From a virus: 60,664 nt of DNA. A program made the translations under genes and the position numbers. The notes below the pieces were generated by a model. It was not told where the DNA came from. It searched no databases and saw only the letters and a list, made by a program, of their open reading frames with translations. Below, in pieces: positions 10,484 to 59,865 of this stretch. Every line of letters starts with the position of its first letter. The first letter of the stretch is position 1. The DNA lies in the IMG/VR virus record IMGVR_UViG_3300021091_000080, positions 1 through 60,664 of that record. One strand, written 5' to 3'.

Positions 10484-11148
10484 ACTTTATAATAATTTTC
10501 AGCATCAGGATCTGGATTTACCAGTAAGACATCTGCAGGAACATCTTCAATAGCACCGATTAGATTGTGAGCATCATTTCCTCTAGAGATAGAAAGATAT
10601 AATCCTGGTTCTGGAATATTGTCTTTATGCTCAACAATAAAATTTTTAATTTCTTCAAGTGTGCTACCATTCTTTTTCATTTGAGCATGTACACTCATTA
10701 CAAAAGTACTATCAATTGGTTTTGTACAAATGGGTCTCAAAGCATTAAAAATTTCAATACATTCAGTTTCTTTTTGAGATAAAACATAATCTGGAGCTTT
10801 ATCTAAGACAGTTTCTGCTGATGGTTCTGTAGAAAGTTGAAATGAGAATGCTGCTTGCTCTGGTTGTGATGCAATCTTATCAAATTCTTCGTCTAAGAAT
10901 TTTTTAAGAGAAATATCGAAAACATGACCCTCAATGATTTTATGAATATCTTCTTCCGAAAGATTTTCAAATTCTATAAATCCACGGATTTCAGGAGAAA
11001 TATCCATTACAATTTCTCTAGTTGCAGATACTTCAGCATCATTTTTTTGCGCTGTATAAGTATAAACAATTTTTGAAACTACATTTGTATGATACTCTGT
11101 ATTAGTTACGAATGGAATAATATTCGTAATTTTGTAATTAGTAGACAT
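10480..11148 (-). CDS. Unrecognised protein of the halogenase cassette
   Basis: This 222-residue protein begins MSTNYKITNIIPFVTNTEYH. It has a beta-rich N-terminal half and a Glu-rich helical C-terminal half, with no signal peptide or catalytic motif that I recognise. It overlaps the halogenase gene by 11 bases and the oxygenase gene by 4, so it belongs to the same operon. It could be a partner or substrate protein of these enzymes, which is inference from context only. Confidence 0.7.
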   Translation of the reverse strand: MSTNYKITNIIPFVTNTEYHTNVVSKIVYTYTAQKNDAEVSATREIVMDISPEIRGFIEFENLSEEDIHKIIEGHVFDISLKKFLDEEFDKIASQPEQAAFSFQLSTEPSAETVLDKAPDYVLSQKETECIEIFNALRPICTKPIDSTFVMSVHAQMKKNGSTLEEIKNFIVEHKDNIPEPGLYLSISRGNDAHNLIGAIEDVPADVLLVNPDPDAENYYKV

Positions 11149-12499
11149 ATTTCTTCCTAAAGGTTGGCGAATTTTCTAGTGGTCCTTTAATTAAAGGATT
11201 GTCTAATGTATTGAACATTTGTACTCCTAAATTATTTAGGATCATGTCAGTTGCTTCTACGTATATATATTCATTTTCTTCGATGTAATCCCAGAACATT
11301 TTTTCTAAGGTTTCTTCTAATTCTAATCCACGAACACATAGAAGAAAATTATGAGTAGCATAATTACCATACTCATTATCAATAGGAAAAAATGTATCTC
11401 CTTTATGCATATTAATTACATACTTAATGAACTGTAAATCATTTTTTAAGAAATTATATGCTTTTTCTTTAGCATGTTGCCAGAATGGAGTATCATATAC
11501 CGATCCATTTAAGTAATGCAAAGCAATAACCTTTCTTGTATGATTAATTCTTGTAGTAACTTCTTTTGAATACATTTCAATTTTATAATCCAATGGAGAA
11601 GGATTATTTGGATTTAAAATTTCAATATACATTTGTTGAGCAAAATTAACCAATTGAAGAGTATTTGCTTCCATTGGTTCAATAAAAAATAATGCATTAC
11701 CATTGACGCATACATTTCCTTCTATAGGTTTTTGTTTCATTCCAGATACAAAAGAAAATTCTGTCATATCATATTCCAGCATATTCAGATCATACTTTTC
11801 TTTTATATACTCAATCATATTAGATTTTGCTTCTTCTACGGAAGTAATATCATGGTTAAATAACCATCCAATAGAAGTTTCATTTTTCAAAGGAATTTCA
11901 AAACACCATCCATCTGGAGTTGCAACATGCTTTGTAGTTCCAGCATGAGGATTTTTAAATGGGATATGAACTACAGCAACATGATTTACTGGAACTTCCT
12001 CAAATACAATATAATCATCTTTGTTGCCAGAAAATCCAGTGCAGTCATAAACAAATTCGTACTGATTTTTAATATCATCAATATTTACTGTTTCTTTAAT
12101 TACATTGATTTGTTTATTTTCATCTAGCATTTCCATAGCAAGTTTTTGAAACTTACTATTTTTAAAATGACAAGCAATTCTCTCACCGCTAAATGGAGAA
12201 AATGTTGTTTTGCCAGATTTGCCCCATCCAATAAATTCAACAGCGTGCTTTACAGTAGCATCACATTCTTTGAAACTATTGAATACTGGATTAAATCCTA
12301 AAGTTTTCCACAATAAAGACATAACATCATGAGTTGTTGATTCTCCTACTGCGGTAATACTATCAGGATCTCCAGTATAAAAATCAATTTGTATATCTTG
12401 TATTTCTTCTTCTTTCACAGAAGACTTTAAATTTACAAGAGATAAAGCAGATAAAATGCCAGCAGTTCCGCCGCCAACGACACATAATTTTTTTGTCAT
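11138..12499 (-). CDS. Flavin-dependent (tryptophan) halogenase-like protein
   Basis: This 453-residue protein starts with an FAD-binding motif VVGGGTAGILSALSLVN (residues 7-23). It keeps VGEST (51-55), a Lys in ATVKHAVEFIGW (K84) that lines up with the catalytic Lys79 of PrnA, and FFIEPMEANTL with a Glu (E277) where PrnA has Glu346. The diagnostic WxWxIP motif is altered to WCFEIP (198-203). The family uses FADH2, oxygen and halide to halogenate Trp or other aromatics, with an external flavin reductase. None is seen in the window, so a host reductase would be needed. It overlaps both flanking genes. Confidence 0.82.
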   Translation of the reverse strand: MTKKLCVVGGGTAGILSALSLVNLKSSVKEEEIQDIQIDFYTGDPDSITAVGESTTHDVMSLLWKTLGFNPVFNSFKECDATVKHAVEFIGWGKSGKTTFSPFSGERIACHFKNSKFQKLAMEMLDENKQINVIKETVNIDDIKNQYEFVYDCTGFSGNKDDYIVFEEVPVNHVAVVHIPFKNPHAGTTKHVATPDGWCFEIPLKNETSIGWLFNHDITSVEEAKSNMIEYIKEKYDLNMLEYDMTEFSFVSGMKQKPIEGNVCVNGNALFFIEPMEANTLQLVNFAQQMYIEILNPNNPSPLDYKIEMYSKEVTTRINHTRKVIALHYLNGSVYDTPFWQHAKEKAYNFLKNDLQFIKYVINMHKGDTFFPIDNEYGNYATHNFLLCVRGLELEETLEKMFWDYIEENEYIYVEATDMILNNLGVQMFNTLDNPLIKGPLENSPTFRKKYVY

Positions 12500-42300: not shown

Positions 42301-45300
42301 ATATTGACTTAATCCAACATCTATAGTTAATCTTATATAAGATCCAACAGAGAATAGAAAAGATTTTTCTACTCCTGATAAATCGTCTGGAATTTGACCA
42401 CGATAATAATCATCATGATTAATTGGAGGAGTTGAAAAATCTATTTTATCTGGAGTGCTTGGATTAGAAGATCTAATAATTCTATAAGAATAATTTGCTT
42501 CTAATCCATCAGGTAAACCTTGAATATTACCTTCGTCATTAAATTTAAAAATTTCATTCTTTGATTTTTGAACAACACCATTTAAACATACTATTAAATT
42601 CTCGTCCAAATCCGTTTTTACAAGATCTCCATTTTCATAGTAAAGATTAAATTCTTTTGTGATACCATCAAAATTAGGTGAAAGGGATTTTAACTTTCTA
42701 AAATATCTAGAGTTAAGCGCAGTATTTTTAAAATTTATAGTTCTACAATAAAACTTTTGTCCCGAGAGAGGAGGTTCGTAAAAAGTAATTTGAGAACCAG
42801 AAAGAACAAAAGATTCTCCAGGTTCTTGCAAAATGCCATCTAAAGTAATAATTAATTGATTTTGATTTGCTGGGGTGTATACAGTTCCTGAAGAAGATTC
42901 GATTAAATTAAATGATCTTGTTCCAATTCTTTGTCCTGTAGTTGAACTATATGATCCATTAAAAACAGAATTTAATTTCAATTCATATACTAATGTCTCG
43001 GAAGAATTAAATGTATCTACTACTACAGATCCATATCCTCTTTCGACATTTAAATTATTTTGATTTAATATTGTTTGAGTAATCTGTCTCTTTGTATCAA
43101 CAACTGTTATTTGTTGAGGAGACAGATTTAATATAGTAATGCTTTTTGTTGGAGTTTGATTTTGTGGCATTCTAGTAACGCCACTAGATTCAACAATTAC
43201 TTCACCAAATACATTAAATCCAGCTGGGTGAACCGTTTCTTTGATTAAATCTTTCCAAATAGCAATTGGAGTTTTAGATTTAATCACATAAGAAAAATCT
43301 TGATAGAAAGAAGAATCTGTTAGTCTTTGAGAATTAATACCAATTTTTCCTTTATCTGACGTATAATATCCGTAGTTGTCAAAATACGTTTTAATATCAG
43401 AATTAAATTGACTGTAAATAACACTAATAATATCTCCAGAATTTCTATTAGTCTCTGTTCTAATTCTTAAATTTTTATCTACAATGCCAGTAGTCTTTTC
43501 AATTCTAAGAATATTTGATCCTGGCCTCCATCCGTCTTTTGATACATATCCACTAAAAACTTGAATGCCATTTAGAACTTGTATTATTTTTTCACCAGGG
43601 AAAAAATAATCATTCGTAGTATTTTTTAATAATAAAACATAATGTGATCTATAAGATGATAGGTTTGTCTTATCGGCATTAAAGTTGTACCCATTTTCAA
43701 TTAATGAAATTACTTTTGGAGTGCCAATATCTTTAGAAGATGCAAATACTTTTACATTAGTTTCAATTACCTTTAGAGTTGGAGCAGATGTAAATCCAGA
43801 TCCTTTATTAGTAACAAGAACTCTATTAATAATTCCCGATGTTAAAAAGACCTCGCACTCTAAATTAATTCCATCTCCAGTTTCTACAACAACTTTTGGT
43901 TTAGAATAACCAGAACCACCATTAACAACTGTTACTGAAAATACATTTCTATTAACAGAGTCATAATTTGCAATAAGTTTAGCAGCAAAAGAAGAGTGAA
44001 CTTCAACACCTTCTATAATTGGCAACTTCTTGTAACTTTCTCCTGTATTTTCTACTGATACAGAATTAATTTCACCAACTGCAAATTTAGACGTGGTTGT
44101 ATAAGTTATTGATCCACTTCCATCATACTGAGGTCTTGTAGTGTATGGATATACAAATCTTGTTGGAGTTACATATGTAATTCTTTTTAGACCTTGTAGT
44201 GGATCTTCTATTAAATTTAAATACGATCCATTTGTTTGAACTGCATCATTCTTATCATAATAATAATATCTAATATACTTAGTATCAACTTTATATCCGT
44301 CTTTAACACCAAATTTTACAGTAGTAAATGATCCAGAGGATCCTGGAGCAATAGAATTTCTAATTGCTTCCACAGTTATAATATTTTTTCTTATACTTGG
44401 AGAAAACTCAAGAAATGTACCAATCATTGATGAATGACTAGTATCAAATTTATACTGATAGTATTTTTGAACATCAATAACTGGATTTATATTAAATGTA
44501 GTTCCATTCTTTGAAAACTCAAATTTATTTTCTGGAGAAGTAACTGAAGAAATTTTTACAAGTTTTCTTGGAACACTGGTATCAAAGAATGTGTTACTAA
44601 CATCTAATTCATTAGGAGAATTTATTCCATATCCATAATTTAAAATTAATTCTTGAGTATCTTCATTATACGAATGAACATATGGATCATTAGATGTGCT
44701 ACCTACTGGTTGTGTTCCGATAATAAAGTTATATTTTGTTTTTTCTAAAGTTACAAGATTTTTATTATAGTAATTATCTGGTCTTGTAGAATTATAACCT
44801 CTAACAACTGTAACACTTTTTTCAGTTTCATTTACAGAGGAAACAAGTAGTAATTCATTTGAAACTCGTAAAATATCTCCTTGTGATATTCCAACAACAT
44901 TATCTAATTTAAATAATGTATTTGCTGAGGAAATACCAACATGAACCACTTCTAATAAAAGTCTTTGAGTAGAAGTGCTTGCCACTAAACGATTAAGAGA
45001 TGCATCAGATACTGTAAGTATATCTCCTCTCTTGTATCCTGATCCTTTATTTGTAATTACTACACTAGTGACTGCTCCATACCCCGTTGCCCCTATGTTA
45101 CTTACCGTAATAGTTGCTCTAGCATTACCAGAGTCTCCAGCAGCACCAATTCCATTTCTTCTTAGTGATTGATTTTGAAAGATCAGTTCTATATTAGAAT
45201 AAACATTAGTTTGATAGTCAATCCCAGAATTTAATGTCGATACTCTACCAGCACCAGTATCATTTATTACTACTTCTATTTGCTGTTTTTGAAGAATTAC

Positions 45301-52917: not shown

Positions 52918-53104
52918 TTGTAACCTTCTCTGTTCTAGTCATATTATCATAAAGCGTTTCAACATCATACTGTGGCGTATTCACACCATTTGCATAATAG
53001 TCAAGTGCCATATCTTCGATGGTCTCGGCAAATTCGTTGAAATCATCAAACAGTTGCTCTTTGAGTGTACCGTCTGGTGTTTTAATCTTAATCCTGTGCT
53101 GCAT
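52868..53104 (-). CDS. 78-residue acidic protein
   Basis: MQHRIKIKTPDGTLKEQLFD is a beta-hairpin-like start followed by an acidic helical part (DDFNEFAETIEDMALDYYAN). It is the first gene of the virion module after the noncoding segment on its right. No family is recognised. The 50-base overlap with the next gene is unusual but both frames look genuine. Confidence 0.62.
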   Translation of the reverse strand: MQHRIKIKTPDGTLKEQLFDDFNEFAETIEDMALDYYANGVNTPQYDVETLYDNMTRTEKVTNGFDTEDFGKAEFIGE

Positions 53105-53402
53105 AACTTTTTTTACCTTTTTTTACCTGGGGAAATTTTTTGAATAGATGGGAACCCATTATCTTAAATGTCTCTCCCACACATATTGAAATATACCAAA
53201 ATTCATCGAACGGCGTTATCGTCGTCCCATAAATCGACTTTTTCATACTCTAATACCCACGGAAATTTTTTATTTCGGGTTCCTTTGAAATATTTATCGG
53301 TCGTCTGGATACTTTTGTAGGTTAGAGAGGGTCAAATATGGGACCCGCTCGGCCCCGCCGATCGGACGGGTAGGGGGGCATTATACTGTCCCCCCAGGGG
53401 GG
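53105..53402. other. Noncoding segment between virion and accessory regions
   Basis: About 300 bases without a gene. The left part is AT-rich and has GGAAATTTTTT twice (near 53130 and 53260). The right part is GC-rich, with interleaved inverted repeats around 53342-53372 (ACCCG...CGGGT) and CCCCCC/GGGGGG around 53390-53402. A minus-strand TATAAT lies at 53381-53386. It marks a sharp composition change. It may hold a terminator for the accessory genes and a promoter for the 78-residue gene. Confidence 0.5.
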
Positions 53403-53564
53403 TCACCAACGCTGGCGATCGTAGCAGGCATCTGCCCAACCGTCACGCTCCCAGCGGCGGGCATCGAAGTCGTCTGCATCCATCAGGTCGTCGTGCTCAC
53501 AGTCCAGAAAGCGGTCATCGTACTGGGGGGCGAACTGGGAGCGGTAACCTTGGGAAGTGGTCAT
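53403..53564 (-). CDS. 53-residue hypothetical protein (GC-rich island)
   Basis: MTTSQGYRSQFAPQYDDRFL onward, acidic, with DDLMDADDFDARRWERDGWA in the middle. It has its own promoter module 28 nt upstream. Codons are GC-rich (CGC, CAG, GAC), unlike the virion genes. Unrecognised. Confidence 0.65.
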   Translation of the reverse strand: MTTSQGYRSQFAPQYDDRFLDCEHDDLMDADDFDARRWERDGWADACYDRQRW

Positions 53565-53591
53565 GGGTTGTTTCGTTTGGTTGATGTGATC

Positions 53592-53649
53592 AGTCTACAG
53601 GGTCAGGGCATCTGGCAGGCGCCAGGGAGGACACTGTTGTAGGTGTCAC
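53592..53649 (-). promoter_or_regulatory. Promoter module 1 (palindrome plus -10)
   Basis: The -10 hexamer TAGACT (53592-53597) lies 29 nt from an interrupted palindrome at 53627-53649 (plus strand GAGGACA-N10-TGTCAC). The palindrome is inside the next upstream coding sequence. It drives the 53-residue gene. Confidence 0.55.
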
Positions 53650-53779
53650 AGCGGCGCTCGGTGGCAGCGTTCACGCTCTGCACGGTGTCAGCAGCGAACT
53701 CGATGACAGCAGCGCCAGCAGCAGTGATGGGGGCATAGAAGGCGGCGCCGAGGGCAAGGGTGAGGATGGTCTTGGGCAT
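53603..53779 (-). CDS. 58-residue putative secreted peptide
   Basis: Starting at ATG 53779 the peptide is MPKTILTLALGAAFYAPITA followed by AGAAVIEFAADTVQSVNAAT. It has a short basic n-region, a hydrophobic core and an Ala-rich possible cleavage area. Two Cys follow (ERRCDTY and PGACQMP). Longer upstream starts were rejected because the promoter module lies within them. Confidence 0.6.
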   Translation of the reverse strand: MPKTILTLALGAAFYAPITAAGAAVIEFAADTVQSVNAATERRCDTYNSVLPGACQMP

Positions 53780-53801
53780 GGGTCGTTTGCTTGTTGTGGT
53801 T

Positions 53802-53860
53802 AGTCTACAGGGTCGGTCGGTCGATTTGGGGTCAGGTGGGGACAGTGCCCCAACCGTCAC
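53802..53860 (-). promoter_or_regulatory. Promoter module 2
   Basis: TAGACT (53802-53807), 30 nt from the palindrome GGGGACA-N10-CGTCAC (53838-53860, plus strand). The 3' arm contains the stop codon of the upstream gene. Confidence 0.55.
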
Positions 53861-54030
53861 AGGATCTGCAGGTCGTCAAGGATCACCCCATCCTTGCGGA
53901 TCTCAGCGTAGACGAACTCGTCTGCCTTGATGGCGAGCAGGCGCTGCGCCTCTGCCCAGGTCTGGCAGTCGATGGATTCCCAGGGGTCAGACGGGACGAA
54001 GACGGTGAAGCGGGTTTGGTTGTTTTTCAT
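53857..54030 (-). CDS. 57-residue hypothetical protein
   Basis: MKNNQTRFTVFVPSDPWESI is followed by a helical part (TWAEAQRLLAIKADEFVYAE), a small alpha/beta fold. It stands alone between two promoter modules. Unrecognised. Confidence 0.65.
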   Translation of the reverse strand: MKNNQTRFTVFVPSDPWESIDCQTWAEAQRLLAIKADEFVYAEIRKDGVILDDLQIL

Positions 54031-54036
54031 GCTGTC

Positions 54037-54093
54037 AGTCTACAGGGTCGGGGGGCAGCGTTGCCCCCTGGTGGACACCTCACAGGGTGACCA
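54037..54093 (-). promoter_or_regulatory. Promoter module 3 with internal GC hairpin
   Basis: TAGACT (54037-54042), 28 nt from GTGGACA-N10-TGACCA (54071-54093, plus strand). A perfect 7-bp hairpin GGGGGCA-GCGT-TGCCCCC (54051-54068) lies between them. Confidence 0.5.
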
Positions 54094-54337
54094 TCATGTC
54101 CACCATCTCCTGGGCGTCGATCTTATCGTCATCCCACGCTACGCCGTCGGGGGTCTGCCCGAGCATCCGCCCGATCTGTCCCTGCATCATGCAACGCTGG
54201 AACTTCTGCCAGGGGGTCTCGTTGTCACCGCAGAAGGTCACACACGCCTTAGCGGTATTGTAGAGGAACTCATCGTTCTGCATCCAGAGGGAAGCGTTCC
54301 AGGTCTCGTAGTTTGCCCAACCGTTGTAGGTCGTCAT
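54080..54337 (-). CDS. DUF7249-like small protein
   Basis: This 85-residue protein begins MTTYNGWANYETWNASLWMQ, a start I recognise from a family common in cyanobacteria and their phages (DUF7249, function unknown). The Trp/Asn/Tyr motif NGWxNYETWN is complete. The acidic C-terminus (DDKIDAQEMVDMMVTL) is typical. It has its own promoter module. Confidence 0.78.
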   Translation of the reverse strand: MTTYNGWANYETWNASLWMQNDEFLYNTAKACVTFCGDNETPWQKFQRCMMQGQIGRMLGQTPDGVAWDDDKIDAQEMVDMMVTL

Positions 54338-54364
54338 GGGTTGTCTCGTTTGGTTGATGGGTTT

Positions 54365-54422
54365 AGTCTACAGGGTCACGGTCTGGTGGCGCTGCAGGAG
54401 TGTGCGGTTCACCCACTGTCCC
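54365..54422 (-). promoter_or_regulatory. Promoter module 4 (degenerate palindrome)
   Basis: TAGACT (54365-54370), 29 nt from a weak copy GTGTGCG-N10-TGTCCC (54400-54422, plus strand), inside the upstream coding sequence. It drives the DUF7249-like gene. Confidence 0.45.
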
Positions 54423-54613
54423 AGCGAAGCGCCAGGGTTGACCATCAGGCGTAGCATGTCACGACGGCGGCAGTCATGGGCGGTCACGCTGCCCGAGTGC
54501 CACTGCACAATGGCACGACCAGTCAGTGGCGACAGGATGACACGCTCACAGGCAGACGATGGGCGCTGCACGTTGATGAAGACGGGCAGGTGATCGATGG
54601 CGAAGTCCAGCAT
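54368..54613 (-). CDS. 81-residue hypothetical protein
   Basis: MLDFAIDHLPVFINVQRPSS onward, with a basic part RRRDMLRLMVNPGAS. The stop overlaps the promoter of the next gene. One Cys pair is present (SACERV, HDCRRR). No family is recognised. Confidence 0.6.
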   Translation of the reverse strand: MLDFAIDHLPVFINVQRPSSACERVILSPLTGRAIVQWHSGSVTAHDCRRRDMLRLMVNPGASLGQWVNRTLLQRHQTVTL

Positions 54614-54634
54614 AGTGTGGTGGTTGTTGTGGTT

Positions 54635-54693
54635 AGTCTAGAGGGTCAGGGGGGAGAATGGGGGCATCTGGTGGACACCCCCTACACTGTCAC
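54635..54693 (-). promoter_or_regulatory. Promoter module 5
   Basis: TAGACT (54635-54640), 30 nt from GTGGACA-N10-TGTCAC (54671-54693, plus strand). The stop codon of the upstream gene lies in the 3' arm. Confidence 0.58.
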
Positions 54694-54887
54694 ATCCCGT
54701 TCAGGAAGTCGTGCAGATCCTCCCTATACTCTGCTTCGGTCTGATAGGTGCGACCGTGGATCGTGCGAGGGTAGGTCGCCACAGGGGCAGGCGCCCTGCT
54801 GGGTTCCTTGCCCTGGGAGAGGATCTGAGCAACGTAGGGGTTCACGTCGTAGATCTCGCCAGGCATGTCTTGGATCTCATCCCACAT
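54690..54887 (-). CDS. 65-residue hypothetical protein
   Basis: MWDEIQDMPGEIYDVNPYVA followed by a Pro/Ala linker and a C-terminal helix (YREDLHDFLNGM). Small, acidic N-terminus, with its own promoter module. Unrecognised. Confidence 0.6.
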   Translation of the reverse strand: MWDEIQDMPGEIYDVNPYVAQILSQGKEPSRAPAPVATYPRTIHGRTYQTEAEYREDLHDFLNGM

Positions 54888-54915
54888 AGGTTTGGTTCGT
54901 TTGGTTGATGCTGTT

Positions 54916-54973
54916 AGTATGGCACCCCTTGGTGGGGTTTGGGGCAGTTGGTGGACAGTGCCTCAGGTGTCAC
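54916..54973 (-). promoter_or_regulatory. Promoter module 6 (CATACT variant)
   Basis: CATACT (54916-54921, preceded by TGC) lies 29 nt from GTGGACA-N10-TGTCAC (54951-54973, plus strand). The nuclease-like gene's stop codon is in the 3' arm. Confidence 0.58.
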
Positions 54974-55530
54974 AGTCCTTTCTCTTCAAGAATAGGGGCG
55001 ACAACCTCACGAAGGAATGTAAAGTATTCGTCAGATGTGAAGGGGGCATCGATGACAGCGAGCAGGTCATTCACGCCCCAGACGTTCATACCTTTGTTGG
55101 CATACTTTGTCTGCTCACTGTTGCTCACTGTAGCGACGACAGGTACAAAGTAAGCAGCATAGATGTTGCCGAGGTGAGAGGCAATGGCATTTACTTTGTC
55201 ATTGCTAGCACGAATCTTCTCGCTGTCAAAGTTAAGATTGCACTTGCTCTCCAGGTAATAGTTCTGGGCATCAATCTTAAACAAGTGATCAATCTGGCGT
55301 TGGCGACCGTTAATGTCGAGCAGGTTCGATTCTTCGATCAGGTTGTCTGCTTTACTGTCGCTAATCACTTGATTCCAGAAACGCTCAATCCGCTCACCAA
55401 ATGCAATCAGAATAGATTGGGGAGAGATACGGTCATCGAGACCAAGTGCCTGCAGGATGTGAGATTCAGTTTGCTTTGGTTCAATAGAGAGAACCAGGGG
55501 CAGCAGGTTGGATTCGAGGTAGGCGGTCAT
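54970..55530 (-). CDS. PD-(D/E)XK nuclease-like, type II restriction endonuclease-like
   Basis: This 186-residue protein has GRQRQIDHLF (D81) and, 12 residues later, YYLESKC (E94, K96), the D-X(n)-ExK core of PD-(D/E)XK nucleases. The helix SEKIRASNDKVNAIASHLG follows, as in restriction enzymes. The size fits a type II enzyme. No methyltransferase lies nearby, so if it cuts DNA the phage or host genome must be protected otherwise, or the target is competitor DNA. It may also be a homing-type or repair nuclease. It is the longest gene of the GC-rich island and has its own promoter module. Confidence 0.72.
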   Translation of the reverse strand: MTAYLESNLLPLVLSIEPKQTESHILQALGLDDRISPQSILIAFGERIERFWNQVISDSKADNLIEESNLLDINGRQRQIDHLFKIDAQNYYLESKCNLNFDSEKIRASNDKVNAIASHLGNIYAAYFVPVVATVSNSEQTKYANKGMNVWGVNDLLAVIDAPFTSDEYFTFLREVVAPILEEKGL

Positions 55531-55551
55531 GGGTTGTTTGCTGATGTGGTT

Positions 55552-55610
55552 AGTCTACAGGGTCAGCGAGCGATCAGGTCGCCTGTAGTGTACAGTGCGT
55601 GAGCTGTCAC
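55552..55610 (-). promoter_or_regulatory. Promoter module 7, before the nuclease gene
   Basis: TAGACT (55552-55557), 30 nt from GTGTACA-N10-TGTCAC (55588-55610, plus strand). The palindrome is inside the upstream coding sequence. Confidence 0.57.
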
Positions 55611-55688
55611 ACTGCGGACAGGGGCAAGCGGTCCCCACAGTAGGATGACCGCTGCACAGATGGCGATGGTACGCATGTTCTTTTTCAT
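55563..55688 (-). CDS. 41-residue putative secreted or anchored peptide
   Basis: MKKNMRTIAICAAVILLWGP followed by LAPVRSVTAHALYTTGDLIA. It has a basic n-region and a hydrophobic core typical of a signal peptide or single membrane span. Its ATG overlaps the stop of the upstream gene (TGATG), so the two are translationally coupled. Confidence 0.58.
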   Translation of the reverse strand: MKKNMRTIAICAAVILLWGPLAPVRSVTAHALYTTGDLIAR

Positions 55689-55849
55689 CAGTGGCGATCG
55701 CTGATGTTCCAGTTGGTGATGGGGGCAGGCACAGGGCGGATGCCTTGGCGGATCTCCTGGCGGATCTGCTCCTCGCGGATCACCTTGGCGGTGTACTCTG
55801 CCATCACGGTGGCGAGGAGTTCGTCGTGGGTCATCTTGGTTTTGTTCAT
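55688..55849 (-). CDS. 53-residue basic helical protein
   Basis: MNKTKMTHDELLATVMAEYT followed by AKVIREEQIRQEIRQGIRP, a long amphipathic helix. Coupled to the 41-residue peptide by a one-base overlap. Unrecognised. Confidence 0.62.
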   Translation of the reverse strand: MNKTKMTHDELLATVMAEYTAKVIREEQIRQEIRQGIRPVPAPITNWNISDRH

Positions 55850-55855
55850 GCTGTA

Positions 55856-55914
55856 ATTCTACAGGGTCACTGTCCGCCGATGGGGGCACCAATGGACACT
55901 TTGGGAGGTGGCAC
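55856..55914 (-). promoter_or_regulatory. Promoter module 8
   Basis: TAGAAT (55856-55861), 30 nt from ATGGACA-N10-TGGCAC (55892-55914, plus strand), inside the 3' end of the upstream coding sequence. Confidence 0.55.
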
Positions 55915-56022
55915 ACGATAGTCGCTGACGGGCAGGAGATGGACTAACCAGGACACCGCCACCACACCAACGGAGCAGCACAGCATGATCTCTATAGTTT
56001 TCTGGAAATCTTTATCAATCAT
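55867..56022 (-). CDS. 51-residue single-span membrane protein
   Basis: MIDKDFQKTIEIMLCCSVGV followed by VAVSWLVHLLPVSD gives one transmembrane segment, then a Pro-rich tail. The ATG at 56022 overlaps the previous gene by 8 bases; an ATG at 56028 is equally possible. It is the last gene of the operon from promoter module 9. Confidence 0.58.
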   Translation of the reverse strand: MIDKDFQKTIEIMLCCSVGVVAVSWLVHLLPVSDYRVPPPKVSIGAPIGGQ

Positions 56023-56194
56023 TGTCATCCAGCAGTTCGGGGTAGTACTCTTCAACCTCTGCAATCAGGTCTTCATCACTATAACCTTGCAGATTATCTT
56101 GTAGAGCATCATATACAAAACGTTCCATCGTTTTGAAGTCCATACTATCAATCACCTGTTGAATGTATGATTCTTGGAGTGCAGTGCGGTTCAT
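56015..56194 (-). CDS. 59-residue acidic protein
   Basis: MNRTALQESYIQQVIDSMDF onward, ending in an acidic stretch (VEEYYPELLDDND). I chose ATG 56194. A GTG at 56203 that overlaps the upstream stop (GTGA) is an alternative that would fit translational coupling. Confidence 0.62.
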   Translation of the reverse strand: MNRTALQESYIQQVIDSMDFKTMERFVYDALQDNLQGYSDEDLIAEVEEYYPELLDDND

Positions 56195-56199
56195 GATGT

Positions 56200-56412
56200 T
56201 CACTTCAGAATGATACGATAATCAATGGACTTAATGCACCAACCTGATGCACAACTTATCTCTTCAATTAAATCCTCTTCATTGTTTGCTTCCCAAATAC
56301 TGCCGATGTAACGAGTGGGCAGGAACTCTTCATTTTCAAGTTGATCTTTCTCAGTCCAATCATCATCATCTAAACTACAATCAAACTCGATAGAAGTAAT
56401 CTGGAATTGCAT
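56200..56412 (-). CDS. 70-residue acidic hypothetical protein
   Basis: MQFQITSIEFDCSLDDDDWT onward, with GSIWEANNEEDLIEEISCAS and a C-terminal strand. The ATG shares its A with the upstream stop (TGATG), so translation is coupled. It resembles small acidic proteins of other cyanophages, function unknown. Confidence 0.68.
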   Translation of the reverse strand: MQFQITSIEFDCSLDDDDWTEKDQLENEEFLPTRYIGSIWEANNEEDLIEEISCASGWCIKSIDYRIILK

Positions 56413-56555
56413 CAGGCAACCTCATCACGAAGTACGGTCAGGATGTCATGGAGTTCGGTAACATTAGCACCGACGATCTCACTAACCTCATCCCAATCAT
56501 CGTGGAACTCAATCAGTTGGAGGAGAGCATCTACCTGCTCAAATGTTAGTGTCAT
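56412..56555 (-). CDS. 47-residue acidic helical protein
   Basis: MTLTFEQVDALLQLIEFHDD followed by WDEVSEIVGANVTELHDILT. All helical. Overlaps its upstream neighbour by four bases (ATGA). Confidence 0.65.
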   Translation of the reverse strand: MTLTFEQVDALLQLIEFHDDWDEVSEIVGANVTELHDILTVLRDEVA

Positions 56556-56677
56556 TTCCGAAATGGAGAATTGAAGTAACGAGTGAAGCATAGCACCAGA
56601 ATGATGCCCGTGGAGATGACACCGACCAGTCCTAGAACTGTCACACCATCGCCAGTAAATCCGTAAGTGTCAGGCAT
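56552..56677 (-). CDS. 41-residue membrane protein, first in operon
   Basis: MPDTYGFTGDGVTVLGLVGV followed by ISTGIILVLCFTRYFNSPF has one transmembrane span with a positive-inside tail. It is the first gene of a five-gene overlapping operon. Confidence 0.62.
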   Translation of the reverse strand: MPDTYGFTGDGVTVLGLVGVISTGIILVLCFTRYFNSPFRK

Positions 56678-56698
56678 AAAATCTCAGGAACAAATGTA

Positions 56699-56756
56699 AT
56701 GTAACAGGGAACGGGGCAACAATCAAGTGACCTTGTGCCACTTCTCAAACTGGCAT
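56699..56756 (-). promoter_or_regulatory. Promoter module 9
   Basis: TTACAT (56699-56704), preceded by CCCTG as in other modules, is 30 nt from GTGCCA-N10-TGGCAT (56735-56756, plus strand). Confidence 0.5.
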
Positions 56757-56757
56757 A

Positions 56758-56931
56758 TCAGAATACCACTTGGCGACCATCCCAGGTAATGATATATCCA
56801 GGATCAGGAAGTTGAGCAGTACTGCTATCAACTGACTGAGAAACATCTCCAATCAAATTATCAAGAATAGAAAGAATTTGCTTTCCATTCTTACCACGAC
56901 GAAGAGCAGAAATCATCAATTTAGTAGACAT
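56758..56931 (-). CDS. 57-residue hypothetical protein
   Basis: MSTKLMISALRRGKNGKQIL followed by SILDNLIGDVSQ and a C-terminal strand (GYIITWDGRQVVF). It lies two bases after the 40-residue acidic gene and shares its promoter. Unrecognised. Confidence 0.6.
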   Translation of the reverse strand: MSTKLMISALRRGKNGKQILSILDNLIGDVSQSVDSSTAQLPDPGYIITWDGRQVVF

Positions 56932-56933
56932 AA

Positions 56934-57056
56934 TCAATCCTGAGTAGTGTAATCAAGTTCAACAATAATTTCTATAGAATTATCTTCCAATTCAACTTCT
57001 TCTTTCTCATTATTATAGTATAGTAATTCTTCTAGAATATATTCTTGAAATGTCAT
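56934..57056 (-). CDS. 40-residue acidic peptide
   Basis: MTFQEYILEELLYYNNEKEE followed by VELEDNSIEIIVELDY. Very acidic, helix then strand, as in some phage-encoded inhibitors that mimic nucleic acid; that is speculation. It is the first gene after the sigma-70-like promoter at 57079-57107. Confidence 0.55.
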   Translation of the reverse strand: MTFQEYILEELLYYNNEKEEVELEDNSIEIIVELDYTTQD

Positions 57057-57078
57057 AGTAGTTAACTCTTACAATACT

Positions 57079-57107
57079 ATTTTATCAATTAAATATTAAA
57101 TTGTAAA
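57079..57107 (-). promoter_or_regulatory. Sigma-70-like promoter (TTTACA-N17-TAAAAT)
   Basis: TTTACA (57102-57107), 17 bases, then TGA-TAAAAT (57079-57084) on the minus strand. Each box has one mismatch, and the -10 is of extended TGN type. It drives the 40- and 57-residue genes. It lacks the GTGNCA palindrome. Confidence 0.68.
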
Positions 57108-57134
57108 GTTTTGAAATATTAAATTTTTAGATTT

Positions 57135-57174
57135 TTGAGAATTCTCAATTTTTTGATTTTTTGAGAATTCTCAA
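57135..57174. repeat. Two identical 14-bp palindromes, 26 bp apart
   Basis: TTGAGAATTCTCAA occurs at 57135-57148 and 57161-57174, each a perfect palindrome flanked by T-runs. They lie 28-67 bp upstream of the promoter at 57079-57107 and directly after the 108-residue gene. Likely an operator pair; on the plus strand each would also look like a terminator. Confidence 0.7.
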
Positions 57175-57184
57175 TTTTTGGGAA

Positions 57185-57511
57185 TTACCCCAGGCGCATA
57201 GAACTAAAGAAAGGAACAGTAGACAGACCTTGAACAGTATTCATTTGAAGGAACCACTGCCAACCCTTTTGAAACACTCGATCTCCAGGTTCGCCATGTG
57301 CCTGCAGAATAGCATTCAGACGAGACTTGGTGGTGACAGTAGGATGATCACCATCAAACAAACGAATGAAGGTGTCACCAACCTCAGCAATCTTGTTACC
57401 ATGAAGAAACACAATTGCGAGACCATCCTCGTGCTCTACACGAGTGTTGGCAAGTTTGAACTCGGTGCCGTTGGTGATGGCAGCGTTCATCAGTCGTTCG
57501 ATCTTACGCAT
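57185..57511 (-). CDS. 108-residue hypothetical protein
   Basis: MRKIERLMNAAITNGTEFKL followed by a beta-rich part (ANTRVEHEDGLAIVFLHGNK, IAEVGDTFIRLFDGDHPTVT) and a C-terminal part rich in aromatic residues (QKGWQWFLQMNTVQGLSTV). Small phage proteins of this kind are common in marine cyanophages, but I cannot assign a function. It has its own promoter module upstream. Confidence 0.72.
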   Translation of the reverse strand: MRKIERLMNAAITNGTEFKLANTRVEHEDGLAIVFLHGNKIAEVGDTFIRLFDGDHPTVTTKSRLNAILQAHGEPGDRVFQKGWQWFLQMNTVQGLSTVPFFSSMRLG

Positions 57512-57536
57512 GAGAGGCGTTTCGGTTGATGTATAC

Positions 57537-57595
57537 AGTATGGCAGGGATTCGGGGGGAAGTCTAGGGGGTATGTGCCACTTCCTAGACTGGCAC
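57537..57595 (-). promoter_or_regulatory. Promoter module 10 (CATACT variant)
   Basis: CATACT (57537-57542, preceded by TGC) is 31 nt from GTGCCA-N10-TGGCAC (57574-57595, plus strand), a perfect palindrome with a 10-base centre. Confidence 0.6.
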
Positions 57596-57598
57596 AAA

Positions 57599-57757
57599 CT
57601 AGATCACAGAAACTTCGACACGCTTAAGATTCAAACCAGCGAGTTGATTCAATACACGATCGTGAATAGTATCGCAGGCATTCTTTAACTTAGAACGCTC
57701 ATACCAGATAGTAATACAACCGTCGTAGGTTTGCACTTCGATTCGGATGTCTTTCAT
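57599..57757 (-). CDS. 52-residue hypothetical protein
   Basis: MKDIRIEVQTYDGCITIWYE followed by RSKLKNACDTIHDRVLNQLA and a final strand (LKRVEVSVI), a compact beta-alpha-beta fold. Preceded by a terminator and its own promoter module. Confidence 0.65.
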   Translation of the reverse strand: MKDIRIEVQTYDGCITIWYERSKLKNACDTIHDRVLNQLAGLNLKRVEVSVI

Positions 57758-57779
57758 TTGAAATTTTGACGACTTGAGT

Positions 57780-57838
57780 AGTATGGCATCGATCAGACCC
57801 CAAAAACCAAAAAAGTGGACAGTTCAGAAACCGTCCAC
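57780..57838 (-). promoter_or_regulatory. Promoter module 11 (CATACT variant)
   Basis: CATACT (57780-57785, preceded by TGC) is 29 nt from GTGGACA-N10-CGTCCAC (57815-57838, plus strand). Here the palindrome doubles as a terminator stem. Confidence 0.58.
57809..57838 (-). terminator. Rho-independent terminator after the 53-residue basic/acidic gene
   Basis: A stem of GTGGAC with GTCCAC, extended after one mismatch by GTT/AAC, followed on the minus strand by six T and then a second T-run. Confidence 0.7.
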
Positions 57839-57865
57839 CATTCTACCAAATATTAAGCTTGTAAG

Positions 57866-58027
57866 TTAATGTGAATAATCATCAAAGTATTCGTCACTAT
57901 CTTTAAACTTTGCTTGCCTCTTTGATCGAGACGAGTAACGTTTTTGATTTTGAACTTCGTATCCGAAATCCTCAAAGTCTTCGACGATTTCGGTATAACG
58001 TTCAGGCGATTTACGTGATTTTGTCAT
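57866..58027 (-). CDS. 53-residue charged hypothetical protein
   Basis: MTKSRKSPERYTEIVEDFED followed by FGYEVQNQKRYSSRSKRQAK and an acidic Tyr/Asp-rich tail (DSDEYFDDYSH). Basic middle and acidic ends. A terminator lies downstream and promoter module 12 upstream. Confidence 0.65.
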   Translation of the reverse strand: MTKSRKSPERYTEIVEDFEDFGYEVQNQKRYSSRSKRQAKFKDSDEYFDDYSH

Positions 58028-58049
58028 TGTAATTACTAATTTCTCCTCT

Positions 58050-58107
58050 ATTATATTAGTTTAGGGGTAAAATTATTTATTTTCAGTGACAACTTGAACA
58101 ATTGCAC
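58050..58107 (-). promoter_or_regulatory. Promoter module 12 (TATAAT)
   Basis: A perfect TATAAT (58050-58055) is 30 nt from GTGACA-N10-TTGCAC (58086-58107, plus strand). The palindrome lies inside the upstream coding sequence. Confidence 0.6.
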
Positions 58108-58303
58108 TATTCTTAATACTAATATTGATGAATTTACCAATACTTTCTTCATTTGTAATTACATTTTGAAGCATATCGATGAAATTTTCATCTTTTACTT
58201 CATAATTATACTGTTTATCTGAAGTATTAAAGATAATACTAACAATATTATCATTAACTTCAATCTCTTTTACTGCAGAACTGTTGAAAGAATTAAAAAA
58301 CAT
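58073..58303 (-). CDS. KTSC-like small protein
   Basis: This 76-residue protein begins MFFNSFNSSAVKEIEVNDNI. NSSAVKEI, VSIIFNTSDKQYNYEVKDE and IGKFINISIKN resemble in order the motif layout of the KTSC domain (a small domain often fused to nucleic-acid enzymes). This is a tentative match by pattern. The 3' part contains the palindrome of promoter module 12. Confidence 0.6.
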   Translation of the reverse strand: MFFNSFNSSAVKEIEVNDNIVSIIFNTSDKQYNYEVKDENFIDMLQNVITNEESIGKFINISIKNSAIVQVVTENK

Positions 58304-58329
58304 TGAAAAGTGTTAAAGGTTAATTTTAA

Positions 58330-58440
58330 AGTTTTAGAAAAATCTCAAAATCTTAAAAAATTGACTTTTCTTAATTTTGAAATTTTTCAGTTTTTCAGAA
58401 ATCTTAAAAATCGCAAAATCTGAGATTTTAGAAATTTCCG
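58330..58440. repeat. AT-rich tract with repeated TTTTnAnATCTn-like units
   Basis: On the minus strand variants of TTTTTAAGATTTCTGA, TTTTTTAAGATTTTGAGA and AATCTCAGATTTTG follow each other. Very low GC. It resembles an easily melted region. Confidence 0.5.
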
Positions 58441-58485
58441 AGAATGTAGAGGCGTTGGAAGTGCTCCTGTTTCTCCACTTCATGT

Positions 58486-58543
58486 AATATAGGACATCTT
58501 GGAAGGTTTCCGAGGGTCTGTGTGACACTTTGAGGACTGGCAC
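58486..58543 (-). promoter_or_regulatory. Promoter module 13 (TATATT)
   Basis: TATATT (58486-58491) is 30 nt from GTGACA-N10-TGGCAC (58522-58543, plus strand). The first good gene downstream is the KTSC-like one, leaving a leader of about 180 bases across the AT-rich tract. Confidence 0.5.
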
Positions 58544-58653
58544 AATGATTGTTGACATTCGTTAGGATAACCGCTAAGACAACATCTCCACCGCACCTTA
58601 AAGAACTCTAATGCAGACTACCTATATTTTTTTAACCATTTCTTTATTTTAAG

Positions 58654-58697
58654 TTTTCCACAAGTTTTTCCACAATTTCCTCAAAGACTGTGGAAAA
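58654..58697. other. Cluster of three DnaA-box-like sites TTTTCCACA
   Basis: TTTTCCACA occurs at 58654-58662 and 58666-58674 on the plus strand and at 58689-58697 on the minus strand, all exact. This nonamer is the DnaA box of cyanobacteria as I know it. The T-rich run just left of it may unwind. Confidence 0.6.
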
Positions 58698-58733
58698 CTT
58701 TAAATCAAGAAGGGTTGGTATTACTGGAGAGTG

Positions 58734-58892
58734 TTATTCCGCATATGGAGGATAAGCAAGTGAATAAACTTCATCTAGGATATCATCACATGTTTTATAG
58801 AGTTCTTTATCATTATTAGGTAATGAGACATAAGTTTGATAATAACGAACTGCTGTAAAGAGTGTTTGGTATTGTTGTTGAGAGAGGTTCAT
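58734..58892 (-). CDS. 52-residue hypothetical protein
   Basis: MNLSQQQYQTLFTAVRYYQT followed by YVSLPNNDKELYKTCDDILD, all helical and Tyr-rich. Its ATG overlaps the preceding gene's stop by four bases (ATGA). Confidence 0.65.
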   Translation of the reverse strand: MNLSQQQYQTLFTAVRYYQTYVSLPNNDKELYKTCDDILDEVYSLAYPPYAE

Positions 58893-59053
58893 TGATGTTT
58901 ACGAATTTTCTTTAATTCTTTTAGTTCACTTTTAATCATTTTATATGCAGTATCACTGTCTATTTTATCACCCATTTCAAGGGCAATAATAATATCAACT
59001 CTTGTGCCAAAATGTTGTAGGGCACGTTCAAATGTATCTAGATCTTCATACAT
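58889..59053 (-). CDS. 54-residue helical protein
   Basis: MYEDLDTFERALQHFGTRVD followed by IIIALEMGDKIDSDTAYKMI and a basic C-terminus (SELKELKKIRKHQ). It resembles small helical regulators by composition only. Coupled to the next gene by ATGA. Confidence 0.65.
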   Translation of the reverse strand: MYEDLDTFERALQHFGTRVDIIIALEMGDKIDSDTAYKMIKSELKELKKIRKHQ

Positions 59054-59056
59054 GAT

Positions 59057-59248
59057 TTAAGGTGTCCATTCTTCATACCTTGTATTTATTTTACCATCAT
59101 TCAGAAAGATATTCAAGTGTCCTACGTTACTATTGTTGAGATAAAATGCCATCCATACATGACGACCTTCCTCCATCACTTCATAGTGATACATTTTGAT
59201 GTCATCGAGGACAAATTCATCTGGATTATAAAGTTCTTTATCAGTCAT
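59057..59248 (-). CDS. 63-residue hypothetical protein
   Basis: MTDKELYNPDEFVLDDIKMY followed by beta strands (VWMAFYLNNSNVGHLNIFLN). Its ATG overlaps the preceding stop by four bases. Unrecognised. Confidence 0.68.
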   Translation of the reverse strand: MTDKELYNPDEFVLDDIKMYHYEVMEEGRHVWMAFYLNNSNVGHLNIFLNDGKINTRYEEWTP

Positions 59249-59487
59249 ACAATCACATTATATGCTTCAAGAATAGCATGGGCGAGAGCAATTGCCAAAT
59301 CCTTTTGTTCGATAGTCATATCCTCACGAGCACCACCAGAACAAGAAGTAATGAAGATGCCAGCATTATCTACTGTGAGTTCTACTCGTTCAGTTTCATT
59401 TTCATTTTCAGGATTAGTCCAGGTGAAAACATCAATCTTGGAACGGAGAACATCAGTTCCAGGAAGCAAAGTGTAGAAGTTAGACAT
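59245..59487 (-). CDS. 80-residue hypothetical protein
   Basis: MSNFYTLLPGTDVLRSKIDV followed by a strand-rich middle (ERVELTVDNAGIFITSCSGG) and a helix (DLAIALAHAILEAYNVIV). It is the first gene after promoter module 14 and heads a coupled run of four genes to 58734. Confidence 0.7.
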   Translation of the reverse strand: MSNFYTLLPGTDVLRSKIDVFTWTNPENENETERVELTVDNAGIFITSCSGGAREDMTIEQKDLAIALAHAILEAYNVIV

Positions 59488-59510
59488 TAGAGTTCTGTGT
59501 ATATGAGTGT

Positions 59511-59568
59511 ATTATAGGGCATCCAGGTCGGTTTTGGTGAATTCCTGTGACGGTTGTTCAAGTGTCAC
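59511..59568 (-). promoter_or_regulatory. Promoter module 14 (TATAAT)
   Basis: TATAAT (59511-59516) is 30 nt from GTGACG-N10-TGTCAC (59547-59568, plus strand). The palindrome lies inside the upstream coding sequence, and the hexamer overlaps that gene's stop. Confidence 0.6.
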
Positions 59569-59865
59569 CAAATCAATGTCCTGATGCTTGGTCAGTGTAT
59601 GATTTTCTTTCTTATACCATTCAAGATCGCGTGGATCACTAACAATTACATCGACATCAAAATAGAATTTCTTGTATCTGATTGAAACACCAAATAAAGA
59701 ACGATTGCCGATACTAAAGAAAATTATCGGAAAGAGTTCGTTGCCTCCATATTCATCCCATTGAAGTGTGAAATCAAATAGGGCAAAGTGCGGATAAAAT
59801 TGAAGAACTTGTAAGAACCATTCCTTACCATAATCTTCGTAGGTTTCATAATCAAAGAGTTTCAT
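59512..59865 (-). CDS. 117-residue hypothetical protein
   Basis: MKLFDYETYEDYGKEWFLQV followed by aromatic-rich strands (LQFYPHFALFDFTLQWDEYG, YKKFYFDVDVIVSDPRDLEW). The ATG at 59865 overlaps the upstream stop by four bases (ATGA); a GTG nine bases upstream is the alternative. Unrecognised. Confidence 0.7.
   Translation of the reverse strand: MKLFDYETYEDYGKEWFLQVLQFYPHFALFDFTLQWDEYGGNELFPIIFFSIGNRSLFGVSIRYKKFYFDVDVIVSDPRDLEWYKKENHTLTKHQDIDLVTLEQPSQEFTKTDLDAL

Follow-up and report, generated by a model that had tools for sequence, protein, structure and literature searches.

A small-gene cluster with a recurrent dyad in a cyanophage fragment

The stretch analysed here, IMG/VR record IMGVR_UViG_3300021091_000080 (positions 1 to 60,664, hereafter the window), is a linear virus record of 60.7 kb in which an interrupted palindrome, or dyad, recurs upstream of -10 hexamers in a cluster of small genes. 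Matches to T4-type families included the tail tube, sheath, terminase, neck, gp25/gp6 and large baseplate or fibre genes, and these virion genes were accompanied by cyanophage-specific families, the combination that marks Kyanoviridae. Marine cyanomyoviruses were the top DNA matches, with S-RIM32 first. The window represents part of the genome of an uncultured phage of the Kyanoviridae (a T4-like cyanomyovirus). Its cluster of small open reading frames (ORFs) at 53.4-59.6 kb is the counterpart of the cluster located upstream of gp25-gp6 in S-RIM32, S-WAM2, S-CAM4, S-PM2, S-RSM4 and ACG-2014e.

An earlier note on this DNA had placed 14 palindrome/-10 pairs in the cluster. All 14 sites were read directly and exist as placed, with coordinates good to 1-2 nt, and at least 11 of them are strong. 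The dyad spans 24 bp and reads approximately TGTGMCAS-N8-STGKCACA, that is, two TGTGMCAS half-sites. The predicted units are as follows (gap, distance from dyad to hexamer; aa, amino acids).

59511-59569, minus strand: promoter unit; dyad 59546-59569 (GGTGACACTTGAACAACCGTCACA), gap 29 nt, TATAAT 59511-59516; ORF 59245-59487 (80 aa) from 23 nt past the hexamer
58486-58544, minus strand: promoter unit; dyad 58521-58544 (TGTGCCAGTCCTCAAAGTGTCACA), gap 29 nt, TATATT 58486-58491; within a conserved non-coding module
58050-58108, minus strand: weak unit; dyad-like 58085-58108, sub-threshold, gap 29 nt, TATAAT 58050-58055; ORF 57866-58027 (53 aa)
57780-57838, minus strand: promoter unit; dyad 57815-57838 (GTGGACGGTTTCTGAACTGTCCAC), gap 29 nt, CATACT 57780-57785; ORF 57599-57757 (52 aa)
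57537-57596, minus strand: promoter unit; dyad 57573-57596 (TGTGCCAGTCTAGGAAGTGGCACA), gap 30 nt, CATACT 57537-57542; before the Kyano_Gp96 ORF 57185-57511 (108 aa)
56698-56757, minus strand: promoter unit; dyad 56734-56757 (TATGCCAGTTTGAGAAGTGGCACA), gap 30 nt, weak -10 TACATT 56698-56703; ORF 56552-56677 (41 aa)
55856-55915, minus strand: promoter unit; dyad 55892-55915, gap 30 nt, TAGAAT 55856-55861; ORF 55688-55849 (53 aa)
55552-55611, minus strand: promoter unit; dyad 55588-55611, gap 30 nt, TAGACT 55552-55557; ORF 54970-55530 (186 aa)
54916-54974, minus strand: promoter unit; dyad 54951-54974 (TGTGACACCTGAGGCACTGTCCAC), gap 29 nt, CATACT 54916-54921; ORF 54690-54887 (65 aa)
54635-54694, minus strand: promoter unit; dyad 54671-54694, gap 30 nt, TAGACT 54635-54640; ORF 54368-54613 (81 aa)
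54365-54423, minus strand: weaker unit; dyad 54400-54423 inside the upstream ORF, gap 29 nt, TAGACT 54365-54370; DUF7249 ORF 54080-54337 (85 aa)
54037-54094, minus strand: weaker unit; dyad 54071-54094, gap 28 nt with a GGGGGC...GCCCCC hairpin, TAGACT 54037-54042; ORF 53857-54030 (57 aa)
53802-53861, minus strand: promoter unit; dyad 53838-53861, gap 30 nt, TAGACT 53802-53807; ORF 53603-53779 (58 aa)
53592-53650, minus strand: promoter unit; dyad 53627-53650 inside the upstream ORF, gap 29 nt, TAGACT 53592-53597; ORF 53403-53564 (53 aa)

In the frame of the symmetric 24-mer, the gap was 28 nt at one site, 29 nt at seven and 30 nt at six. The hexamers were TAGACT (six sites), CATACT (three), TATAAT (two), TAGAAT, TATATT and TACATT. 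No -35 box was evident at the 14 sites, in line with the earlier note, as the best match to TTGACA 16-18 nt upstream shared 1-4 of 6 bases. With the hexamer taken as starting at -12, the dyad is centred at about -53.5 (close to -54). All 14 sites lie ahead of a small ORF. At 11 sites the ATG of an ORF follows 20-28 nt past the hexamer. At sites 58521, 55892 and 54071 just 2-6 nt separate the hexamer from the nearest ATG, so the gene start is unsure there. Site quality also varies: 58086 is weak or doubtful and falls under the final threshold of the position weight matrix (PWM), 54400 and 54071 rank below the others, and 56735 combines a strong dyad with a poor -10. Given that the -10 stretch ACCCT(G/C)TAGA(C/A)T is nearly identical among the sites at 53.6-55.9 kb, the 14 sites do not represent 14 independent inventions.

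Two local peculiarities were observed in this part of the cluster. Genes in 53000-56000 have a near-identical -10 and leader (GACCCTGTAGACTAACCACA...) in common, as would result from the copying of a single promoter-leader cassette, and G+C there is 0.5-0.6 compared with ~0.35 elsewhere. Around dyad 54671-54694 a good -10 lies 30 nt away on each strand, so that this dyad could serve divergent promoters.

The dyad and the -10 hexamer keep a fixed distance

Composite sites (dyad plus -10) were scored with the PWM. Region 53400-59700 held 13 of them (12 on the minus strand and one on the plus strand, at the 54671 dyad), against a mean of 0.004 (maximum 1) in 500 order-2 Markov versions of the same region; the palindrome with its ~30-nt spacing is thus not as frequent by chance. 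The same scan found no composite site in the rest of the window. As the PWM was trained on the window and five relatives, and so partly on the sites counted, independent tests carry more weight; Syn9 lay outside the training set. When palindromes in the window were picked blind to the -10, 13 good hexamers lay 28-31 nt away versus two in the remainder of the 0-89 nt range. The same treatment of six relatives gave 37 good hexamers at 28-31 nt. These counts do not come from independent sites, since the phages are relatives of one another and a copied -10 and leader recurs at several sites of the window.

The unit is conserved in cyanomyoviruses and metagenomes

The motif-model scan of relatives that the earlier note had proposed recovered the unit across Kyanoviridae, in the six phages named above and in Syn9. 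The latter has five composite sites versus 0.05 per shuffle, and a dyad upstream of gp25; Syn9 dyads lie at 44774, 47204 and 49078. The full S-RIM32 genome contained 15 composite matches versus 0.1 per shuffle, nine of them on one strand at 51-64 kb, in or near the cluster, and S-PM2 (1-50 kb) contained eight versus 0.05. Furthermore, alignment of the orthologous Kyano_Gp96 promoters showed that the proximal arm AGTGNCACA is kept in seven phages. The conservation extends to a block upstream of the 58521 dyad:

58552-58584, minus strand: conserved block TGTTGKCTTAGC-N11-CGANNGTCAA, ending 7 nt ahead of dyad 58521-58544

Among 61 distinct metagenomic loci picked solely by this block, 57 have the dyad at an offset of 6-7 and 49 a -10 at 28-30 nt, and positions G4, C6, A7, G19 and C21 of the dyad are invariant in the 57.

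The exact dyad pattern, searched blind to the -10, occurred in at least 120 IMG/VR stretches, and 52 of 120 had a -10 at 28-31 nt. In 257 Gb of bacterial and archaeal genomes it occurred in 32 stretches, with one locus having a -10 at that distance. This locus is on contig CALGUV010000127.1 of a Microbacteriaceae metagenome-assembled genome (MAG), which carries five further sites and is probably a cyanophage contig misplaced in a bacterial bin. Two Omnitrophota MAGs have many exact copies of a similar dyad without a -10 at the unit distance; these look like an unrelated repeat family.

The arms of the dyad vary independently

The dyad could in principle be an RNA stem-loop rather than a protein site, either the terminator of the preceding gene or part of a promoter-early-stem-loop (PeSL) shuffling cassette of the kind discussed for T4-like phages (PMC4503421). 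Dyad 57815-57838 is followed directly by T6 and can also be read as a terminator-like hairpin, and such hairpins lie within several spacers (for example, at 131651 and 134380 in S-RIM32). Nevertheless, a T-run follows just one of the 14 dyads, and the arms do not covary: they agree at 49% of positions compared with 52% when arms are shuffled between sites (55 sites), and at 53% compared with 58% in an independent set. This contradicts the earlier note, which had described arm bases as changing together, and agreement at or under the shuffled value in two samples speaks against an RNA stem. Particular bases are invariant, and a terminator needs no fixed distance to a -10. We therefore regard an RNA stem-loop as very improbable. 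The independent variation of the arms instead points to a protein-binding dyad. The gap is preserved with spacers as different as a T-run-tailed terminator hairpin, a hairpin of G-C pairs and a C-rich tract, and it stays at 29 nt where the spacer holds a terminator-like hairpin; this constancy fits a dimer that would sit at a set position relative to the polymerase, centred at about -54.

Comparison with known promoter systems

At the Ogr/Delta-dependent promoters of P2, a dyad is centred near -55, there is no -35 box, and the activator contacts the C-terminal domain of the RNA polymerase alpha subunit (alpha-CTD). The present dyad is likewise centred near -55 without a -35 box. The sequences differ (TGT-N12-ACA in P2, at none of the 14 sites, versus GMCA-N10-TGKC here), and the Ogr_Delta protein (PF04606) was found in none of eight phage genomes by a search that recovered the E. 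coli positive control. Late promoters of P2, P4 and 186 have an interrupted dyad upstream and depend on a phage-coded activator, Ogr/Delta/B (PMC3931495), but their targets are late genes, whereas those of the cyanophage sites are presumably early ones. T4 middle promoters are similar in that the host sigma factor keeps the -10 while the site of a phage activator replaces the -35 box; however, the MotA box lies near -30, is not a dyad, and its TGCTTTA is at none of the 14 sites. Cyanobacterial promoters of the NtcA/CRP family also have a dyad upstream of the -10, but GTA-N8-TAC and TGTGA-N6-TCACA were not found in the cluster. Pattern searches with known cyanobacterial boxes, the MotA box and the Ogr sequence thus gave no identity for the dyad.

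The suggestion of a middle-gene regulon in the earlier note found no support. The genes behind these sites are those of the small-ORF cluster ahead of gp25, and T4-like cyanophages lack Alt, MotA and AsiA, the T4 factors of early and middle transcription (PMC2984593). "Early" would fit the genes of these sites better than "middle". The coding strand of the window has 13 T4-type late octamers (NATAAATA), most of them before virion genes and three in the last 8 kb, and none coincides with any of the 14 hexamers; this distribution indicates two promoter classes in the window.

Doron et al. 2016 reportedly describe a novel regulatory element that governs transcription of the early genes of Syn9; it is reported to be abundant in T4-like cyanophages and conserved among them. 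That element belongs to the same phage group, and the present dyad likewise occurs in Syn9 and is conserved among these phages. We consider it likely that the two are the same. No description of the motif was found in the literature searched, whose reach stopped short of Doron et al. 2016 and of the Comeau et al. paper on PeSL cassettes.

A phage or a host regulator

A host regulator hijacked by the phage could also bind the dyad. Immediate-early genes need to be read before any phage protein exists, and cyanophages are reported to contain host sites of the NtcA type (PMC3037559). However, no composite site was found by PWM in the 2.24 Mb genome of one marine Synechococcus (psbA 95% identical to that of Syn9), where the test is less sensitive because the genome has 60% GC and the -10 PWM favours AT-rich hexamers. 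Exact dyads numbered four in 121 genomes of the family of that Synechococcus; read by eye, three are in a repeat-like context, one is a perfect hairpin, and none has the promoter unit. Pattern searches of 292 cyanobacterial genomes and these 121 likewise gave no sign of a host regulon, and NtcA, CRP, Pho-box and HLR1 patterns are absent from the cluster. A hijacked host regulator is accordingly unlikely, and the absence of a comparable host unit makes a phage-specific activator the likelier choice.

An activator-dependent promoter is the favoured explanation

We infer that the sites are activator-dependent, -35-less promoters in which the dyad is the operator of a putative, probably phage-encoded or virion-carried activator near -54, and we hold this to be a probable explanation. 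A dimeric protein would bind the 24-bp dyad and could contact the host RNA polymerase via alpha-CTD and/or sigma region 4, while the polymerase would recognise the -10 hexamer alone. The promoters would then read small, presumably early genes. The earlier note had likewise proposed an activator operator about 54 bp before the start; its dyad, its fixed spacing, kept across phages and spacers, and the missing -35 box stand and make this the best reading, with binding and activation as the conjectural part. Transcription of the genes immediately on infection would require an activator already present in the virion or the host, and an activator that is itself an early product would make the sites delayed-early.

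Several points weigh against this explanation. A recognisable -10 was at the expected distance in 58 of 89 good dyads, leaving about one third without. Starts, binding and expression are sequence-based predictions. None of the 54 ORFs in two early clusters has a Pfam match to a known DNA-binding family; searches of six to eight phage genomes with Ogr_Delta, RHH_1, HTH_3 and HTH_Crp_2 were negative, and Pfam and PHROGs gave no activator candidate among the small ORFs. The host scan covered a single genome in which AT-rich hexamers are rare. Finally, the sequence is compatible with repression as well as activation, and the -54 position and missing -35 favour the latter. A repressor might bind the dyad and silence the early promoters as infection proceeds, a role with which the position of the dyad by itself is compatible. 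Against this, a polymerase acting alone would have no -35 box, a centre near -54 is unusual in simple repression, and the strict -10 spacing points to polymerase contact, so we give a repressor very little credence compared with the activator.

A conserved non-coding module around the 58521 dyad

The module at 58.2-58.7 kb (minus strand) is conserved in seven cyanomyoviruses and the 61 metagenomic loci. It contains the upstream block, the dyad promoter and, after it, ~200 nt of 75-82% AT repeats. Three TTTTCCACA repeats, which resemble DnaA boxes, lie upstream of the dyad (58654-58662, 58666-58674 and 58689-58697), and they are at the same relative place in S-RIM32 (60807, 60821 and 60833) and S-PM2 (9689, 9702 and 9714). 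Rfam gave no match in the window, module included. T4 oriF consists of a promoter plus an unwinding element. The layout of the module, known here from its sequence, is similar, and we regard the module as a candidate replication origin or regulatory RNA. In a more far-reaching scenario, the early promoters would be under an activator that arrives with the virion or is made immediate-early and whose protein family is yet to be recognised as DNA-binding; the module would be an origin, at which this activator would also license replication in the way of the T4 oriF promoter. We consider this combination unlikely.

T4-like cyanophages are abundant marine viruses, and the operator model (half-sites, spacing and invariant bases) allows fishing for the missing activator, prediction of early genes in uncultured phage contigs and testing of host polymerase takeover, while the module offers a concrete origin candidate. 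If the dyad is the element of Doron et al., what is new here is the half-sites and invariant bases, the finding that the arms vary independently, the strict spacing of 28-30 nt in different phages, the lack of the unit in the one host genome scanned, and the conserved module.

Two further features of the window were observed. A perfect palindrome, TTGAGAATTCTCAA, is present in two copies 12 nt apart at 57135-57174, in an AT-rich intergenic stretch. A tryptophan-halogenase-like gene lies at 11138-12499 on the minus strand, among neck and tail genes.

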